A DNA stretch of 64,000 nucleotides from a bacterium (lineage in GTDB: Bacteria; Patescibacteriota; Saccharimonadia; Saccharimonadales; Saccharimonadaceae), in the NCBI GenBank assembly GCA_030530385.1, contig JAUMVB010000001.1, forward strand, positions 98,577 through 162,576, in the 5' to 3' direction. The position numbers and the translations under genes are program-made. A model generated the notes under the pieces. It was not told the origin of the DNA, ran no database searches, and was given only the letters and a program-made list of their open reading frames with translations. Every line of letters begins with the position of its first letter. The stretch's first letter is position 1. Below are positions 3,348-46,812 of this stretch, piece after piece.

Positions 3348-5300
3348 ATGAAAAGAATTATTTGTAGTAAATTCAATCTGTTAAAAAATAAAATTAAAAA
3401 AATATCTAAAACACCAAAACAACTTTCTAAAAAGGCTTGGCAAATATCTGCTCAAAAATTTCCCAAGGCAGCAAAATTCTTAAGTAAACGTTCTAATCAG
3501 AAAAATCTAGCATTCATCATAAAAATCGCCGCAATATTTATAGCTGGCTGGCTGAGCGTTTTTTATATCTTATGCCGACAATTTGGCTGGAACGGTGCTT
3601 TCACCTTCATCATGGAGCATCCAGAAATATACGGTTATAGTGTGTTAATTATGAATATCGTCGCTATTTTATTTTTTGGGATAGCAGGTAGCACCGCTTG
3701 GTCTATCGGGATTTTCTATTCTGTAATTTCGATTATTATGTTTATCAATGACGAAAAAATCCGCTCGCGTAATGTGCCGTTTTTGCCTGAAGATCTAACT
3801 ATGAGTTCTGAAGCAGGAACTCTAAAAGACTTGGTGAACTGGGGCAATTTAATGCTCACAGTCCTACTAATAATCGCAATCCTCGTTGTCAGTTTTTGGT
3901 TAAATAAGAATATCAAAAAAATACCCCACTATAATTTTCCTAAAAAATATCGTTTACTAGCACAAATCATCATCGTAGGGGCTAGTGGAACTCTTCTAGC
4001 TTTCAATACTGCTTTCCTCCGAACCCAGCTCTACGGCAAAGGGACTTTTGTTAAAGTTGATTGGCTAAACTCAAATATTGACTTTACGGATGCAAAATAC
4101 AATTATGATTCTAATGGATATATAGTCAGTACAATTTCCGCCTTTCAAAACTCCGCACCAAAAAAACCAGACGGCTACTCTAAAGATGCAATCAAAAAAA
4201 TCGTTGATAAATACTCAAAAGTCGCCAATACAGAAAACGATAATCGAGAAAAACTTTCAACCGACAGCCCAAATATTGTGTTTATCATGAGCGAGAGCTT
4301 TGTAGATCCTGCCAAGATTAAAAATTTCTACGACTACGGCAAACACGATCCGATTCCTTACACTCGAGAAATCCTAAAAAAATACACATCTGGGCGTACT
4401 GCTACTGCCGAATACGGTGGCGGCACAGCCAATGTTGAGTTTGAAGCCGTCACCGGACTATCGAACTACTTCCTAAATTCAGTGCCTTACACCACATTAT
4501 TACTTAGCAATCCACAAGCACCTTCATTAACTAAATCACTTGCTAAAAACGGATATTCAACGACTGCGATTCATCCTTACAACGGTACAATGTATAAACG
4601 AAATGTCGTATACCCAAACTTAGGCTTTAAGAAATTTATAGATATATCTAAATTTAAAAATACCTCAAAAATCGATAATTCTAAATATATTTCCGACGAA
4701 GTCGCTTTCGATCAAGTTTTAACCGAACTAAAAGCTACTAAAAATAAAGATTTTGTTCACTTAGTAACTATGCAAAATCATATGCCTTACGATAGCGGAA
4801 CTTATTCTTCAAATAATTTTCCTATTAAAAATATTGCTGGCAGTGATTCGGAGGCTAAAAGTTGGGAGACTTACATTCAAGGAATTAATAAATCCGACAC
4901 TGCCTTAAAAGAATTTATCAAAAAGCTTCAAACACTAAACGAAAAAACTATTGTTGTATTTTGGGGTGACCACTGGCCAGGAATTGCTAGCGCACTACTA
5001 AATTCCAATCAAAAAGCCGATGCCCAAAGCACCCCACTTTTCATCTATAGCAATTTCAATACAGACAAAAAAGAGCTCAACCAAATTAGTTTGAACTATC
5101 TCCAAGTTAAAATCTTTGACCAAATCGGTGCTAAACTTTCTCCATTTCAGCAACTTCTACTAGAAAATTCCAAGAAAAATCCCGCCCTAACCAAAAAAAT
5201 TAGTCCGCAAGATACGCAAGAGCTAAAAGACTACGAGATGATCGAATATGACATTCTAAGCGGTAAAAAATACAGCACAGGAAGCTTTTACGAGCAATAA
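3348..5300 (+). CDS. LTA-synthase-like phosphoglycerol transferase (sulfatase fold)
   Basis: A 650-aa protein: a basic cytosolic head (1-55), about five membrane helices (57-225), and an extracellular sulfatase-fold domain (about 305-610). Metal and catalytic motifs are visible: NIVFIMSESF, GRTATAEYGGG with the likely nucleophile Thr351, and WGDHWPG with Asp541-His542. The family polymerises glycerol phosphate from phosphatidylglycerol or decorates glycans with it. Members are common in small wall-bearing CPR bacteria. A TAAAAT box ends 6 nt before the ATG with no SD, so the mRNA is probably leaderless. The true acceptor is not known. Confidence 0.85.
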   Translation: MKRIICSKFNLLKNKIKKISKTPKQLSKKAWQISAQKFPKAAKFLSKRSNQKNLAFIIKIAAIFIAGWLSVFYILCRQFGWNGAFTFIMEHPEIYGYSVLIMNIVAILFFGIAGSTAWSIGIFYSVISIIMFINDEKIRSRNVPFLPEDLTMSSEAGTLKDLVNWGNLMLTVLLIIAILVVSFWLNKNIKKIPHYNFPKKYRLLAQIIIVGASGTLLAFNTAFLRTQLYGKGTFVKVDWLNSNIDFTDAKYNYDSNGYIVSTISAFQNSAPKKPDGYSKDAIKKIVDKYSKVANTENDNREKLSTDSPNIVFIMSESFVDPAKIKNFYDYGKHDPIPYTREILKKYTSGRTATAEYGGGTANVEFEAVTGLSNYFLNSVPYTTLLLSNPQAPSLTKSLAKNGYSTTAIHPYNGTMYKRNVVYPNLGFKKFIDISKFKNTSKIDNSKYISDEVAFDQVLTELKATKNKDFVHLVTMQNHMPYDSGTYSSNNFPIKNIAGSDSEAKSWETYIQGINKSDTALKEFIKKLQTLNEKTIVVFWGDHWPGIASALLNSNQKADAQSTPLFIYSNFNTDKKELNQISLNYLQVKIFDQIGAKLSPFQQLLLENSKKNPALTKKISPQDTQELKDYEMIEYDILSGKKYSTGSFYEQ

Positions 5301-8398: not shown

Positions 8399-8752
8399 AT
8401 GAATAAACAAAAATGGAGAGAAATCTGTCTTGATTGGCAGCGATATAAAGGTGAATATTTAGGACTGATATTCATCGTTATATGTTTTTTTGCATTTATC
8501 TGGTTTTTTGTTTTCAGGCCAGTCTCTAATCTATACGAAGAGGGCGAAAGGTCTGAATTAAAAACCGAAATTCTTAGAAATATCGAAGGAAATATTTCTA
8601 GAATTTCAGCAAAAAACAAAAGCCAAGCGGAAGAAATTAAAAACCGCTTGGAAGCCATCAAGAAAGATGATAGCATAAAAACCCTTGAATCTATCACTAT
8701 AAGTCAAGATAATAATAAATTCGAGGTGGTTATTGTATTTGGGCGCGACTAG
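8399..8752 (+). CDS. orphan single-pass membrane protein with hairpin-rich coding sequence
   Basis: A 117-aa protein: charged cytosolic start (1-20), one membrane helix (about 21-41, rich in Phe/Ile), then a Glu/Lys-rich, probably coiled-coil domain. No family recognised. It has its own promoter, SD and terminator. The coding DNA contains strong local inverted repeats: 8567-8583 with 8592-8607 (16 bp, one bulge), CCAAGCGG/CCGCTTGG at 8623 and 8644, and nested ATATAA/TTATAT plus TGAATAT/ATATTCA at 8443-8483. The terminator overlaps the stop codon. Confidence 0.7.
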   Translation: MNKQKWREICLDWQRYKGEYLGLIFIVICFFAFIWFFVFRPVSNLYEEGERSELKTEILRNIEGNISRISAKNKSQAEEIKNRLEAIKKDDSIKTLESITISQDNNKFEVVIVFGRD

Positions 8753-8766: not shown

Positions 8767-9471
8767 TTGAGTTTTATACTTACGAATAGCTTCGCGGGCG
8801 GCTTCTTGTTGTGCAATTTGTTTACTTGGCCCTTCACCTTCACCCATTTTCTTCTCACCCACAAAAACACCCAAAGTAAAGATCTTTTCGTGATCTGGAC
8901 CGTCTTCACTCAATACTCGATAAACCGGAGTGAACCCATCGCGCGCTTGTGAAATTTCCTGCAAATAACTTTTAGGATCACGCCAAGATTCATCTTCTAG
9001 AATCTGAGGTAAAGTCGATAAAATATTGTCGGTGATGTATTTTTTGGCAGCTTCATAACCTTGATCAAGATAAATTGCGCCAGTGGTAGCTTCAAACGCA
9101 TTTGCCAAAATCTGTTGGCGAGCACGCGCTGAACCATGTTTTTCGCCGCGTGACATACGAATTAGTTTTTCGTAGCCAAGACGCTCACCAGCCGCACCAA
9201 TACTCTCAGTCCGAACTAATGCCGAACGCCAAGCAGTTAAAATTCCTTCCGGTTCATGATAATTAGAAAATAAAAAATCTGTCGTAACAAGTTCTAGCAC
9301 TGCATCACCTAAAAATTCTAAGCGTTCATTGTGCTCGCTTGCTGATTTTTTATGTTCATTCAAATAACTTCGATGCGTCAAAGCCGTCACTAAAAGCTGT
9401 ATATCATTAAAATCATAGCCAAGCTTTTCTTTTGCCCAGTCATGATAAGGTGTTAGCAAAATTCCACTCAC
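8761..9471 (-). CDS. rnc: ribonuclease III
   Basis: A 236-aa double-strand-specific endoribonuclease. Signature NERLEFLGDAVLELV (residues about 43-57) supplies metal ligands, with ANAFEATTGAIYLD as the second acidic site, and a dsRNA-binding domain follows (about 163-236, ending EAAREAIRKYK). GTG start at 9471 overlaps the last base of the upstream NUDIX stop codon, and CAGGAGA within that gene's end is the SD, so translation is coupled. As the main dsRNA nuclease it is a natural candidate to process the hairpin-rich mRNAs in this window (inference). Confidence 0.95.
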   Translation of the reverse strand: MSGILLTPYHDWAKEKLGYDFNDIQLLVTALTHRSYLNEHKKSASEHNERLEFLGDAVLELVTTDFLFSNYHEPEGILTAWRSALVRTESIGAAGERLGYEKLIRMSRGEKHGSARARQQILANAFEATTGAIYLDQGYEAAKKYITDNILSTLPQILEDESWRDPKSYLQEISQARDGFTPVYRVLSEDGPDHEKIFTLGVFVGEKKMGEGEGPSKQIAQQEAAREAIRKYKTQK

Positions 9472-28194: not shown

Positions 28195-28394
28195 CTTTTT
28201 TTGATTACGAATAAAATTTCTCCCGCAGACGCATTACTGCGACGCACTACCTTAATCCTGTCCTTCTTTCGAAACGAGCACGGTGTCGACCTTTATTAGT
28301 TAATATTAGTGAAATCGTGCGCTCTTACGACAGTTTCTGGCAGGTGCCTTAATATAAAACGTTCCACAAAATATAACATTCTATATTAATTTAC
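28195..28394 (-). ncRNA. structured 5' leader RNA of the LysM-CHAP gene (candidate riboswitch)
   Basis: Between the promoter and the start lie about 200 nt with nested pairings. In + strand coordinates: GACAG 28329-28333 with CTGTC 28258-28262, enclosing CGTGCGCTC 28316-28324 with GAGCACG 28276-28282; AGGTGC 28342-28347 with GCACTACCT 28244-28252 enclosing that domain; and CGCAG/CTGCG at 28224 and 28237 on the gene side. Wall hydrolases are often controlled by c-di-AMP riboswitches, but I cannot find that consensus here. No known class recognised. Confidence 0.55.
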
Positions 28395-42512: not shown

Positions 42513-42857
42513 ATGATTTATTTGTTTGTTTCATTAATTATTTTTGTAATTCGTCTATTCTCCTGGATTCCAGGAGTAGATACAATGAATTTCGTTATCG
42601 GAATTCATTTCATAGTAGGAATGTTATTCATATTCCTACTAGACAAGCACACTCTTATCTGGCAAAACCTAGTCAGGAAAGCCAGATTTGGAGGAATTTC
42701 ATTCCTGTTAATTGGGATGATTCTACTAGATACAACAGGTATCTGGCAGAACCTAATCGGTATCGCCATTATAGTGTTTCTGATATGGCGATACGGCAGA
42801 GCCAAATCTGGCCGGTCATTCAAGAAAGTGTTGATTGATTGGCTGAATGAAGAATAG
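42513..42857 (+). CDS. orphan 4-helix membrane protein with hairpin-rich coding sequence
   Basis: A 114-aa protein with about four hydrophobic helices and a basic C-terminal tail. IWQN occurs twice (internal repeat). No family recognised. Start 42513 is chosen because GGGGGTG lies 6 nt upstream. Inverted repeats fill the gene: CTCCTGG/CCAGGAG at 42560, AATGAAT/ATTCATT at 42584, TAGTAGGAAT/ATTCCTACTA at 42613, ATCTGGC/GCCAGAT at 42657 with nested CCT/AGG, AGGAAT/ATTCCT at 42692, AGATAC/GTATCT at 42728, GTATCGCCAT/ATGGCGATAC at 42760, TCATTCA/TGAATGA at 42817. Confidence 0.7.
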   Translation: MIYLFVSLIIFVIRLFSWIPGVDTMNFVIGIHFIVGMLFIFLLDKHTLIWQNLVRKARFGGISFLLIGMILLDTTGIWQNLIGIAIIVFLIWRYGRAKSGRSFKKVLIDWLNEE

Positions 42858-42956: not shown

Positions 42957-42985
42957 TTGACTTTTTAAGTTTTTTGTGCTATAAT
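42957..42985 (+). promoter_or_regulatory. promoter of the lipoprotein gene
   Basis: TTGACT at 42957-42962, 17-nt spacer, TATAAT at 42980-42985. Confidence 0.75.
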
Positions 42986-42989
42986 CTGC

Positions 42990-43214
42990 CTAGTTGACAG
43001 AGTTTTAAAGCGAGGTTTGTCAATGCCGCTTAACAATCGGGCTAATAAAGGGGATTAAACCCCCTAGTTTTGCGACGACTAATTCTCCAACCTCCTCACA
43101 GCGCGCACAGAGGAGATTGGCGATTTTGTCGTCGTAAGACGACTCGTCTCTTTTTCCTGTTATCTATTGCGCAAAGGTAACACGAAAAAAATAAAAAAAA
43201 GGAGGAAGAAAGAG
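42990..43214 (+). ncRNA. long structured 5' leader of the lipoprotein gene
   Basis: The 358-base gap before the gene holds a promoter and this leader of about 225 nt. Pairings: TTGACA 42994/TGTCAA 43018 or AAGCG/CGCTT (alternatives); AGGGG/CCCCT at 43049; a long stem CGACGAC 43073 with GTCGTCG 43128 containing CCAA/TTGG and CTCCTC/GAGGAG. GTCGTC 43128-43133 can instead pair with GACGAC 43138-43143 over a GTAA loop, followed shortly by CTCTTTTT. So two exclusive folds exist, as in riboswitches or attenuators. No known class recognised. Confidence 0.6.
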
Positions 43215-44414
43215 ATGAGTAGATTTAAAAACAGGAAGATGGCCATGGCCGCAATCATGGCTATCTTCCTTCTATTGCTTGCTCCATGCTTAACTGCATG
43301 TAGCGCAGCATCAGCTGCAAAAGCGGCTGATACTAAAAAGGAGCAGGTATCACCAAAAGAGATACCTGTCTCTAATGACTCCACCCTGAAGAACGACTTC
43401 TTCAAGGTGGACAATAATGAGATGACCAACATGTTTGGTCGTCTCATTAAGCCAAGTAGTGTTGGAGTCAGCGACACCGCTGACTCCAACGTATTACCAA
43501 GCGACCCTCAACGAGCCGCTTGGATGGACCTGCAGATGACCGCAAAGTCGCCTGCAGCAATGGAGGGCATGATTAGGAATGTCCTCCATAAAAAAGTTCC
43601 CGTCAATCTTACTGTTAAGATTGACGGGACTGAATATCTGAGCCGCGAGGCTCAAGCTCTGTGGTTCGAGTATTACAATCTGCTCAAGCCACAGATTCAA
43701 AAAGATCAGGTGAAGGTTAAGACCCTCTCAGAGGGAACTAAAGCCTTCACTGATGGAGTTGACAAAAATGGCAATTACATTGTCAGTAGTCAACTCCAGG
43801 ACCTGTCGGGACAACAAGTCCTGACATTTAAGGATTCGCGCGGGAAAGAAGTACAAAAGTGCAATTTCTGCGCGAATATCGTCCTCGAGGAACAGCCAAA
43901 AGACGTTCCTCGAGGCGATAACAAGGTTCCGAAGGCGCCACCAGCGCCCAAGGAACCACCAGTACCAGGCACTCCACCGTCTCCTGGCACTCCACCGCCA
44001 GGCACTTCGGCGAAAAATATCGCCGAAGCACCCCAACGCAACTCTGCAGTAGTTGCGGCCGATACCAACAATGTCCGGCCGGGGGCAACTGGTGGAGAAA
44101 AAGCTACGGTAAACTCATCTCCTGGTACTTCATACCAGGGTAATGATGAGTCTGCTGTATCAAAAGCGGCAGCTGAGGCCCAGGCTCAAGCTGCAGCTCA
44201 GGCGGCGGCACAAGCACAGGCTGCGGCCGAGCATAAAGCAGCTCAAAAAGCTGCAGATGATGCTCTAGCAGCCGAAAAGGCAGCTGCAGCACAAGCCGCT
44301 CAAGATGCAGCCACCGCTCAAGCAGCTGCCGAAGCAGCCCAAAGGGCTACCAACCAGCAAAAAGCCCAGACACAGACCAACAACGGCACTGTGTCTAGCG
44401 ATGATGATTGGTAG
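43215..44414 (+). CDS. lipoprotein with Pro-rich and Ala/Gln-rich coiled-coil regions; hairpin-chain coding sequence
   Basis: A 399-aa exported lipoprotein: basic start, hydrophobic core, lipobox LTAC (Cys about 29), then a mixed domain (45-235) of unknown fold, a Pro-rich spacer (PKAPPAPKEPPVPGTPPSPG), and an Ala/Gln-rich helical tail (about 310-385) ending SSDDDW. SD AAGGAGGA fixes ATG at 43215. It is much richer in G+C than its neighbours. The DNA is an almost unbroken series of short-range inverted repeats, some 13 bp perfect. Surface tether or stalk is a guess from the layout. Confidence 0.75.
   Translation: MSRFKNRKMAMAAIMAIFLLLLAPCLTACSAASAAKAADTKKEQVSPKEIPVSNDSTLKNDFFKVDNNEMTNMFGRLIKPSSVGVSDTADSNVLPSDPQRAAWMDLQMTAKSPAAMEGMIRNVLHKKVPVNLTVKIDGTEYLSREAQALWFEYYNLLKPQIQKDQVKVKTLSEGTKAFTDGVDKNGNYIVSSQLQDLSGQQVLTFKDSRGKEVQKCNFCANIVLEEQPKDVPRGDNKVPKAPPAPKEPPVPGTPPSPGTPPPGTSAKNIAEAPQRNSAVVAADTNNVRPGATGGEKATVNSSPGTSYQGNDESAVSKAAAEAQAQAAAQAAAQAQAAAEHKAAQKAADDALAAEKAAAAQAAQDAATAQAAAEAAQRATNQQKAQTQTNNGTVSSDDDW
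43234..44151 (+). repeat. chain of consecutive short inverted repeats within the lipoprotein gene
   Basis: Left/right arms, in order: GGAAGATGGCCATG 43234/43256; CAGGTATC 43344/43361; CCACCCTGAAGAA 43381/43398; AATGAGATGACCAA 43416/43435; GTTGGAGTCAGCG 43461/43478; CCAAGCG 43497/43517; ATGGAGGGCAT 43560/43579; TCCCGTCAATCTT 43598/43617; TGAGCC 43639/43649; CTGTGGTTCGAG 43659/43683; GTGAAGG 43710/43744 with CCCTC inside; GGAGTTGAC 43755/43789; CAGGAC 43797/43818; ATTCGCGC 43834/43870; CCTCGAGGAAC 43883/43905; GGTTCC 43925/43952 with GGCGC inside; CTTCGGCGA 44005/44020; CGCAACT 44037/44051; CCTGGTA 44121/44133 inside ACTCATC 44113/44145. Most are perfect or differ by G-U pairs. Confidence 0.85.
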
Positions 44415-44425
44415 TTCTATCAAGA

Positions 44426-44498
44426 CCCTCTAGCCCATTCGCTAGAGGGACTCAAAAGTACCTTTCTATCCCCTGCGCTCATTTGCGCGGGGGCTTTT
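44426..44498 (+). terminator. double-hairpin terminator after the lipoprotein gene
   Basis: CCCTCTAGC/GCTAGAGGG with loop CCATTC (44426-44449), then CCCC-GCGC/GCGC-GGGG with loop TCATTT (44470-44493) followed by CTTTT. Confidence 0.8.
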
Positions 44499-44582
44499 CC
44501 AAGTTTAATAACCTTTATTAGCTCGATTGTAAGTTTTTAACAATTCGGTTTAGCAATTACGACATACTAAATAGATTGACTT

Positions 44583-44631: not shown

Positions 44632-46812
44632 ATGAGAGACTTTCTTAAAAAAGTTGCTAATTTTGCAAAAAGCCACCCCGTGGCATTAAGTGCAATTGCT
44701 GCAACTATAATTATTCCTGCTGGATTAGTGTGGGCTTGGGGTCCAAACCGAGACACTTTCACTATCGAAAAACCAGCAACTCGAGTTGTATTCAACTCAA
44801 TTACAAACAACCCAGATATCGGTGACGAACGAAACTTCGTACGAATCCGAAAACTAGCTAATACAAACGATAAGTGGTCAGATGACTTAAAAATTACCGA
44901 GAGCGGTGAGTATGTTGTCCGAATGTATGTCCACAACAATGCAGCCGATAATTTAAATCTAGTTGCAAATGGAACAACTGCAAAGTTCAACGTTCCAACA
45001 TATTCTGCTAAAAAAATTCAAATCGACGGATTCTTGAGCGCAAGTAATGCACAGCCTGGAACAGTTTTTGACCAAGCTATTTTTAGCAGCGATAAAAACT
45101 TCAAATTAAGCTACGTACCAGGTTCAGCTAAATACACAAACAACGTATTCACTAGTGGCGTAAAATTAAATGATTCTATCGTAAATGGCAACGGTGCGCT
45201 CCTTGGTTATGATAAATTAGACGGAAATATCCCTGGATGTTTCAAATATTCAGGTTGGGTAACTTTCACAGTCAAGGCTGAAGTTGAAAAAACTGGCGAT
45301 TTCACAGTCGAAAAATCAGTTCGCAAAACAGGAACTAAAGGCTGGGTAAAATCAGTGGATGCCAAAAAAGGTGAAAAAGTTGACTATCAAATAGAATTTA
45401 AAAACACCGGTGAAACTCAACTAAATGATGTTGTTATCGCCGACCAACTTCCAAATGGCGTAAAGATTATCCCTGGAAGTATCTACCTAAAGAACGCAAG
45501 CAATCCAAAACCACTAAACATCACCGACAGCCTAGTAAAAGGTGGTGCAAATATTGGTCACTACACAGCTGGAAGTAATGCTCTTTTGAAGTTCACAGCT
45601 GAAGTAACTAACGACGAATGTGGAGCGCACACATTAACAAATACCGCTACCGCAACTACTGGCGTAGGTAATAAATCTTCAACAGCTGATGTAAAAGTCA
45701 ATAAAGTTTGCGAAACACCAAAACCACTTTATAAATGTGATGCTTTGAATGTAAATAAAATTTCACGCACAAAGTTTGAATTTACTACTGCAAAGACAAT
45801 TCAAAATACCGAATTCAAGGGCGTTAAATATATAATTAAGGACGCTAAAGGTAAAGTCGTAGCCGAAAAAATGGTTAATAACGGAACAAAATTAACTTTT
45901 GAATCAGAAGCTGTAGGTAAATATACCGTTTCTGCTACCGTAATTACTAAAGATGGTGAGGCAACAAGCGTAAATTGTGAAAAAACTTTTGAAGTTATTC
46001 AAGAAGAAAAGCTTGTAAAATGTAATTCAACAATCATCACTAAAATTTCACGCACGAAGTTCGAAATTTCAACAACCTATACACAGAAAAATATTTCAAA
46101 AGTTATCGTAAAATACGAAATCAAAGATTCTAACAGTAAAATTGTAAAAACTTTCGAGAATGATGGCAGTAAATTCCAAGTTGAATTCACTCAAACTGGT
46201 AAGTATACCATCGTAGCTAAAGTTATTGGCGATAATTCAAACAATTCAAACTGTGAAAATCAATTTATCGTAGAAGAAGAGCCTAAAGTTAAAACTCCAG
46301 GTGTCTCGATCGTTAAAACAGTTAACGAAAAGAAAAATATTACTACCGAAGCTAATAAAGATTTTAATTGGGAAATTGTTGTTAGAAATACCGGCGAAGT
46401 TGATTTGAAAGATGTTAAAGTAACTGATAAAGCACCTGCTAACGTTAAATTCATCAGTACAGATAAAGGTATAATTTCTGGTGATGACTTCACTTATACA
46501 ATCCCTACTCTAAAAGTTGGTGAAAGTGAAAAAATAATTATCAAATCACAGGCGACAGCTTCAAATATGAAAGCTACAAATATAGCTTGCGTTGATACTC
46601 CAACAATACCTGGTGATAAAGATGGATGCGATAGTGCGCGGATTGAAGTTCCAAAACCAAAAACCCCAGAGAACCCAACTCCAGAGAATCCACGACCACA
46701 AATTCCTGCCGAATTACCACAAACTGGTATTGAAGGATTTGGTGCTATCTTAGCAATCGGATCACTAACAACCGCTGCTGGTTATTACATTGCTAGCCGA
46801 AGAATGATTTAA
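44632..46812 (+). CDS. LPXTG-anchored surface protein with DUF11 repeats
   Basis: A 726-aa exported protein. Signal region: basic MRDFLKKVANFAKSHP, hydrophobic core to WAWG. A first beta-rich domain (about 40-220) is followed by a DUF11 domain (about 223-350, KNTGETQLNDVVIADQLPNG), two related modules each starting with Lys-Cys and containing KISRTKFE (about 362-455 and 462-545), a second DUF11 (about 556-650), a Pro-rich spacer, and the sorting signal LPQTG (695-699), hydrophobic stretch and ASRRMI end. Sortase would link it to the wall; no sortase gene lies in the window. Likely adhesin or stalk for host contact (inference). Confidence 0.88.
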   Translation: MRDFLKKVANFAKSHPVALSAIAATIIIPAGLVWAWGPNRDTFTIEKPATRVVFNSITNNPDIGDERNFVRIRKLANTNDKWSDDLKITESGEYVVRMYVHNNAADNLNLVANGTTAKFNVPTYSAKKIQIDGFLSASNAQPGTVFDQAIFSSDKNFKLSYVPGSAKYTNNVFTSGVKLNDSIVNGNGALLGYDKLDGNIPGCFKYSGWVTFTVKAEVEKTGDFTVEKSVRKTGTKGWVKSVDAKKGEKVDYQIEFKNTGETQLNDVVIADQLPNGVKIIPGSIYLKNASNPKPLNITDSLVKGGANIGHYTAGSNALLKFTAEVTNDECGAHTLTNTATATTGVGNKSSTADVKVNKVCETPKPLYKCDALNVNKISRTKFEFTTAKTIQNTEFKGVKYIIKDAKGKVVAEKMVNNGTKLTFESEAVGKYTVSATVITKDGEATSVNCEKTFEVIQEEKLVKCNSTIITKISRTKFEISTTYTQKNISKVIVKYEIKDSNSKIVKTFENDGSKFQVEFTQTGKYTIVAKVIGDNSNNSNCENQFIVEEEPKVKTPGVSIVKTVNEKKNITTEANKDFNWEIVVRNTGEVDLKDVKVTDKAPANVKFISTDKGIISGDDFTYTIPTLKVGESEKIIIKSQATASNMKATNIACVDTPTIPGDKDGCDSARIEVPKPKTPENPTPENPRPQIPAELPQTGIEGFGAILAIGSLTTAAGYYIASRRMI

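Follow-up and report, generated by a model that had tools for sequence, protein, structure and literature searches.

In the precursors of 16S and 23S rRNA, leader and trailer sequences form helices that are cut by RNase III. In RNA viruses, pervasive folding of coding RNA has been described as genome-scale ordered RNA structure (GORS) (PMC6563262, PMC3765861). Saccharibacteria are themselves a source of structured RNA, exemplified by the lysM-TM7 RNA (RF03005), a 138-nt cis-regulatory motif. A copy is found at 28220-28345 on the minus strand (83 bits), unrelated in sequence and place to the element described here; the source genome is that of a Saccharibacterium, as this RNA and the mostly Saccharibacteria-labelled relatives indicate. 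These and all following positions are those of the window, the whole stretch of 64,000 nucleotides that was analysed.

The gene at 43215-44414 belongs to a class of mRNAs, end-clamped and fully folded, that recurs across Saccharibacteria and whose architecture is solid. Computational analysis shows a common design. A promoter is followed by a short 5' hairpin, the 5' arm and a leader hairpin; then come one or two ORFs, and after them terminal hairpins and the 3' arm. Class-wide, the sense RNA folds almost everywhere into hairpins of 8-16 bp by way of synonymous codons, and the two arms pair with each other across 1.2-3 kb. At this locus the parts are the following:

42513-42857, +, upstream membrane-protein ORF, hairpin-rich (synonymous-shuffle z -7.0)
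42957-42985, +, putative promoter, TTGACT - 17 nt - TATAAT, from the sequence
42994-43023, +, P1, hairpin at the predicted 5' end (TTGACA / TGTCAA)
43033-43060, +, 5' arm of the closing stem, part of the region's longest inverted repeat, with covariation over 25 loci
43067-43140, +, leader hairpin with 31-nt arms, just inside the closing stem
43200-43205, +, putative ribosome-binding site AGGAGG in A-rich surroundings, from the sequence
43215-44414, +, hairpin-chain coding sequence (CDS) of a 399-aa lipoprotein
44414-44493, +, terminal hairpins CCCTCTAGC/GCTAGAGGG and CCCCTGCGC/GCGCGGGGG
44503-44530, +, 3' arm of the closing stem
44537-44548, +, TTAACAATTCGG, a repeat of the 5'-arm start, immediately past the 3' arm
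44632-46812, +, DUF11-domain wall protein, the conserved downstream neighbour, with ordinary folding

The hairpin-chain gene occupies a chromosomal locus flanked by housekeeping genes. Relatives carry a matching promoter about 60 nt upstream of the 5' closing arm, and three of them (G001, G003, and G004) have a leader hairpin at the equivalent position. The arms of P1 differ in sequence in G001 and G003 with pairing kept, and in the wider family double changes are found in 4 of its 8 predicted pairs. P1 of the 5' leaders (e.g. L084 2902-2958) harbors a conserved apical GGUGUGAGGACC and is followed by a GGAGG with no evident start codon downstream; judged from the sequence, GGUGUGAGGACC/GGAGG is possibly a protein-binding or SD-like site. 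At the other end, the counterpart of TTAACAATTCGG in relatives is TTAACAAYTCGGC, which could pair with the 3' arm as a short competing hairpin. Many species also have a conserved small leader hairpin around TCTGCGAGA ahead of the DUF11 gene (e.g. L069, about 4370-4400). The leader and terminator hairpins had already been reported in a first-pass annotation of this DNA and were found again at 43067-43140 and 44414-44493; the closing stem, the recurrence across Saccharibacteria, the two-ORF versions, the dispersed copies and the hairpin-rich ORF 42513-42857 are additions to it.

The folded part holds a conserved ORF of 350-500 aa. Its annotation as a lipoprotein fits the 399-aa product, which has a lipoprotein signal with the lipobox LTAC, but does not extend to the many relatives that look TM-anchored, with an N-terminal hydrophobic anchor in place of this signal. 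An AlphaFold model (mean pLDDT 75) predicts a single confident domain at about residues 98-230, together with a disordered stretch rich in Pro and a long helix rich in Ala. Searches of Pfam, NCBIfam, PDB sequences and PDB folds returned no match for the protein; in a 23-member alignment, Cys 219, a few prolines and one lysine are nearly invariant.

About twenty hairpins had been said to tile this CDS without interrupting the reading frame. Both statements hold: a strand-symmetric stem finder places 48% of the CDS in 25 non-overlapping stems, the named ones within a base or two of their reported positions, against an average coverage of 17.5% in 60 ordinary genes of the same genome. The GTTGGAGTCAGCG stem (43461-43473/43478-43490; 13 bp perfect, loop of 4 nt) is as reported, the CCTCGAGGAAC stem (43883-43893/43905-43915) has the reported 11 bp but a loop of 11 nt, the pair near 43234 and 43416 corresponds to stems with 15-nt arms (43233-43270 and 43415-43449; 93%), and the TCCCGTCAATCTTA stem at 43598 is present but perfect over 14 bp (43598-43611/43616-43629) rather than 13. 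When synonymous codons were shuffled with protein and codon usage held fixed, which is the check that the first-pass annotation had proposed, the native CDS (-569.7 kcal/mol) fell far outside the range of the shuffles (-389.1, SD 11.7), with a z of -15.5 for the sense strand; the antisense strand gave -15.9. The neighbouring typA, HIT, DUF11, response regulator, folD, and murB genes all lie within about 2 SD of their shuffles. Over the 14 contigs of the genome (628 kb, 150-nt windows), no run of hairpin-rich windows is longer than that of the CDS region, which extends over 13 in a row and is the strongest hairpin region found in coding DNA; the gene-mean ranking places the CDS second, behind only the upstream ORF 42513-42857. 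Synonymous shuffles, genome scan and orthologues rule out chance or composition as the cause, and an assembly artefact is ruled out because many independent assemblies, one of them a complete genome (L076), repeat the design. An open translation start was rejected, the start being barely less paired (0.51-0.56) than the CDS (0.6-0.7). Nearly all CDS stems measure 16 bp or less, and their lengths taper smoothly, without the sharp limit that would indicate avoidance of RNase III.

Other genes of the source genome (G000) are hairpin-rich as well, namely C11:69-956, C12:29735-30896, C1:24246-24983, C4:20018-20788, and C12:52781-53167 (synonymous z -6 to -13). They encode mostly hypothetical proteins, and a closing stem, looked for around the hairpin-rich genes of this genome, was not found at them. 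A wider class of folded mRNAs, beyond the closing-stem elements, may exist. A hairpin-rich gene for a 117-aa membrane protein (8399-8752, +, z -6.0) adjoins the convergent RNase III gene (8779-9432, -).

The closing stem joins 43033-43060 to 44503-44530 through 28-nt arms that are 89% complementary, spans 1.44 kb and encloses the whole gene. Four relatives share this arrangement with the window: in all five, the inverted repeat that the search tool ranks longest encloses the gene rather than forming a local hairpin, with arms of 27-34 nt that are 79-93% complementary. A closing stem is present in 40 of the 48 scored loci, several of the other 8 being truncated contigs. Its usual sequence is GTTAACAARTCAGATYATTACAGTGCATGTC paired with GACATGCACATTGTAATGATCTGATTTG, with a small bulge, variable in length, on the 3' strand. 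Elements with a 5' arm far upstream contain a second ORF, usually for a small membrane protein. A 15-base core occurs in 61 of the 393 genomes of the taxonomic class, mostly as convergent pairs 1.2-3 kb apart; a reversed control pattern gave only isolated matches in the same genomes. An ordinary gene-flank repeat was considered and rejected, as control gene-enclosing repeats have a median score of 12 and a maximum of 18.7 against 22.2 at the 43215-44414 gene. The closing stem covaries strongly: in an alignment of 25 sequences, 96.2% of cells pair and 15 of 17 pairs show changes on both sides. Taking the arms directly from the search biases this alignment towards pairing, but that search scored G-U and A-C alike. 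None of 500 shuffles reached any of five covariation measures, and sliding by 1-3 columns destroyed the signal. The closing stems contain 57 G-U against 21 A-C (p=6e-5).

Recurrence was assessed with the downstream DUF11-type wall protein as an anchor, for which 80 loci were fetched, mostly from named Saccharibacteria, 68 of them with a scorable upstream ORF. This ORF folds far below its own codon shuffles in 50 of the 68 (z < -3; median -6.9), and the remaining 18 have a median z of -1.1. Folded loci mostly have 200-400 nt between ORF and DUF11 gene, which leaves room for terminal hairpins and the 3' arm; at the 18 unfolded loci the gap is mostly below 130 nt. Orthologues of the hairpin-chain gene within a genus reach z -6 to -15, and the distant orthologue L050/L097 is a near-perfect hairpin chain with 74% GC and a z of -21. 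Several upstream ORFs of genus g2 are folded (z -3 to -9), a Nanosynbacter MAG (L127) has a hairpin-rich homologue (z -9.8), and strain TM7i (complete genome, L076) carries the element. The presence of the element in TM7i and of this homologue in a Nanosynbacter MAG makes it accessible in culture.

The excess of folding over shuffles is larger on the sense than on the antisense strand in 37 of 41 folded CDSs (p=1e-7), a bias that 47 control genes lack (p=0.25). Taken together with the covariation of the closing stem and its preference for G-U over A-C, this sense-strand excess leads us to say that selection acts on the sense mRNA strand. RNA-level selection had been proposed earlier from G-U substitutions in the CDS; the 37/41 sense excess and the 57 G-U against 21 A-C of the closing stem bear out the proposal, but the original argument is marginal within CDSs, where the G-U excess (p=0.06, 48 genes) was rejected as proof. 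A different origin would be template-switch (quasipalindrome-correcting) mutation, which makes perfect inverted repeats in weakly constrained genes without any selection for folding. The stems are indeed largely perfect, some unrelated hypothetical genes of the source genome are hairpin-rich too, and compensation in the CDS is weak. Such a mechanism is strand-symmetric, however, and can yield neither the G-U excess, nor the sense excess, nor a covarying stem across 1-3 kb. It is disfavoured, and we regard an account free of folding selection as very improbable.

Individual CDS stems behave differently from the closing stem. Strong covariation was looked for three times and only weak compensation was seen. 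Between orthologues of about 64-88% identity, with codons reshuffled only within identical codon/amino-acid classes, broken pairs number 235 against 252.7 +/- 7.3 expected (p=0.009) and double changes 22 against 17.3 (p=0.065). These are the figures to use, since a count containing duplicate loci overstates the effect, and they were measured on other orthologues, the genus of the 43215-44414 gene being without close relatives; a separate earlier comparison had a similar outcome, again with weak compensation. On the covariation check proposed in the first-pass annotation, compensation is present but weak, and the stems mostly turn over. Overall foldedness is conserved and a fixed shape is not; selection seems to target the folded state.

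A reading of the unit as mobile or cassette-like DNA has to be weighed in genus g60, where up to 12 motif hits per genome form dispersed copies and tandem arrays. Different orphan ORFs lie within common ends, as in the cassette-like arrays of L146-L151, whose short units have the ends of the closing stem around small, unrelated orphan ORFs. Where copies stand in tandem, a 3' arm is followed almost directly by the 5' arm of the next copy, leaving no room for a promoter. Genes inside elements have a folding excess of -0.039 kcal/mol per nt against -0.014 for flanking genes, about three times as much; the excess is strongest in the main surface-protein family and weak in many small ORFs. On this reading the ends would be terminal inverted repeats, with folding of ssDNA as in integron cassettes or IS200/IS605 elements, or plain TIRs. 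Besides the copy number in g60, an array between rpoC and rpsL in G147 that most congeners lack and TTAACAA repeats at both ends speak for it. Against it, most genomes carry the element once, at a conserved locus and with orthologous proteins, the element ORFs include neither a transposase nor an integrase, and sense-strand folding at the codon level is not expected of TIR or attC elements. Viral contigs contain no exact match to the ends, and a viral origin was rejected on this ground. We consider this reading improbable.

The reading that we prefer, to which we give about an even chance, is that of an envelope-protein mRNA that is processed, clamped at its ends and long-lived. The clamp of paired ends would keep RNase J and 3' exonucleases away from both termini, and few single-stranded sites would be left for RNase Y between the hairpins; with its ends paired and few unpaired stretches, the RNA should be a poor substrate for RNases Y and J. 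The long closing stem, unlike the short CDS hairpins, would be a natural site for RNase III or an RNA-binding protein, and it and the leader stem are long enough for RNase III, by which the mRNA is probably processed. A cut at the closing stem would release the unit from a longer transcript that in many species would run on into the DUF11 gene, much like the cuts in precursor stems of 16S and 23S rRNA. Judged by eye, many species lack an evident promoter consensus between 3' arm and DUF11 gene, and this, together with the lack of promoter room in tandem copies, suggests that a longer transcript is probably cut into units. The outcome would be a long-lived, regulated message. Genes for RNase III and RNase Y are found in 21 of the 21 genomes searched, and RNase J in 19. 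We count against this mechanism the weak CDS compensation, the missing sharp limit of stem length and the hairpin-rich genes without a closing stem. The closing-stem sequence (AAATCAGATCATTAC) is also conserved beyond what RNase III by itself would require, and thus a dedicated binding protein, or a role at the level of DNA, is possible.

Slow, stepwise translation, in which the hairpin chain would pace ribosomes to help the envelope protein to be exported or to fold, agrees with products that are membrane-anchored and contain disordered Pro-rich and Ala-rich parts. It leaves the closing stem, P1 and the leader unexplained, and the DUF11 neighbour, likewise exported, is barely affected; we hold it to be rather doubtful. 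The element could also be an RNA with a job of its own, such as a scaffold, a particle that is bound or localised, or an RNA for export, with the ORF carried within it. The conserved sequence and bulge of the closing stem, a closed architecture resembling that of large structured RNAs and the unrelated small ORFs within common ends in one genus all point this way. The helices of the CDS, however, are replaced from one orthologue to the next, which does not resemble a fixed RNA architecture, the main ORF encodes a conserved protein family, and no partner is known; we see this as a minority reading, unlikely on balance. A more speculative proposal, which we think quite unlikely, is a general RNA-armouring or RNA-particle system of Saccharibacteria, in which a dedicated protein would recognise the AAAUCAGAUCAUUAC closing helix and pack chosen mRNAs into compact, closed particles that last long and might be circularised or passed to the host cell, the unit of one genus being a dispersing cassette with new orphan genes.

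Should the preferred reading of a clamped, long-lived mRNA be true, a bacterial lineage uses the synonymous sites of a protein gene to encode a second, near-complete RNA fold and clamps the message shut. This would be a natural way to design mRNA of high stability and a strong example of translation through a pervasively structured message, and the element would offer a handle on gene expression in small-genome obligate episymbionts. The first-pass annotation knew of no described class of such mRNAs, and we could not find one in Rfam or the open-access literature either: the Rfam 15 covariance models gave no family over the gathering cut-off for the window and relatives, a further search gave at best an E of 0.9 (a microRNA family), and a literature search confined to open-access papers found no description of a bacterial mRNA folded along its full length with its ends zipped.

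Among known systems, OLE, GOLLD, ROOL, and HEARO are likewise closed multi-stem RNAs of at least 0.4 kb, but they are non-coding, whereas here an ORF spans the whole folded interior, with a negative Rfam result. Integron cassettes with attC sites share with genus g60 tandem small-ORF units and inverted-repeat ends; here, by contrast, the arms flank an ORF 0.5-3 kb apart and there is a sense-strand RNA signature. The usual ends (GTTAACAA...), judged by eye, do not fit the RYYYAAC/GTTRRRY cores and adjacent arms of attC, and no integrase is seen among the ORFs neighbouring g60 elements. As in GORS, the RNA folds well below sequence-preserving shuffles across its length, beyond codon or dinucleotide expectation, without one conserved shape; unlike the RNA virus genomes of GORS, it derives from a chromosomal bacterial gene and has clamped ends and a long closing stem. 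Its turnover pattern, on our analysis, resembles GORS more than classical ribozyme-like RNA. With the rRNA processing stems it shares a long, covarying helix that brings together both ends of a folded, kilobase-long RNA and can set this RNA apart from co-transcribed neighbours, the differences being that the enclosed RNA is here an mRNA, that cleavage is suggested by anatomy, and that the sequence of the stem is conserved phylum-wide.
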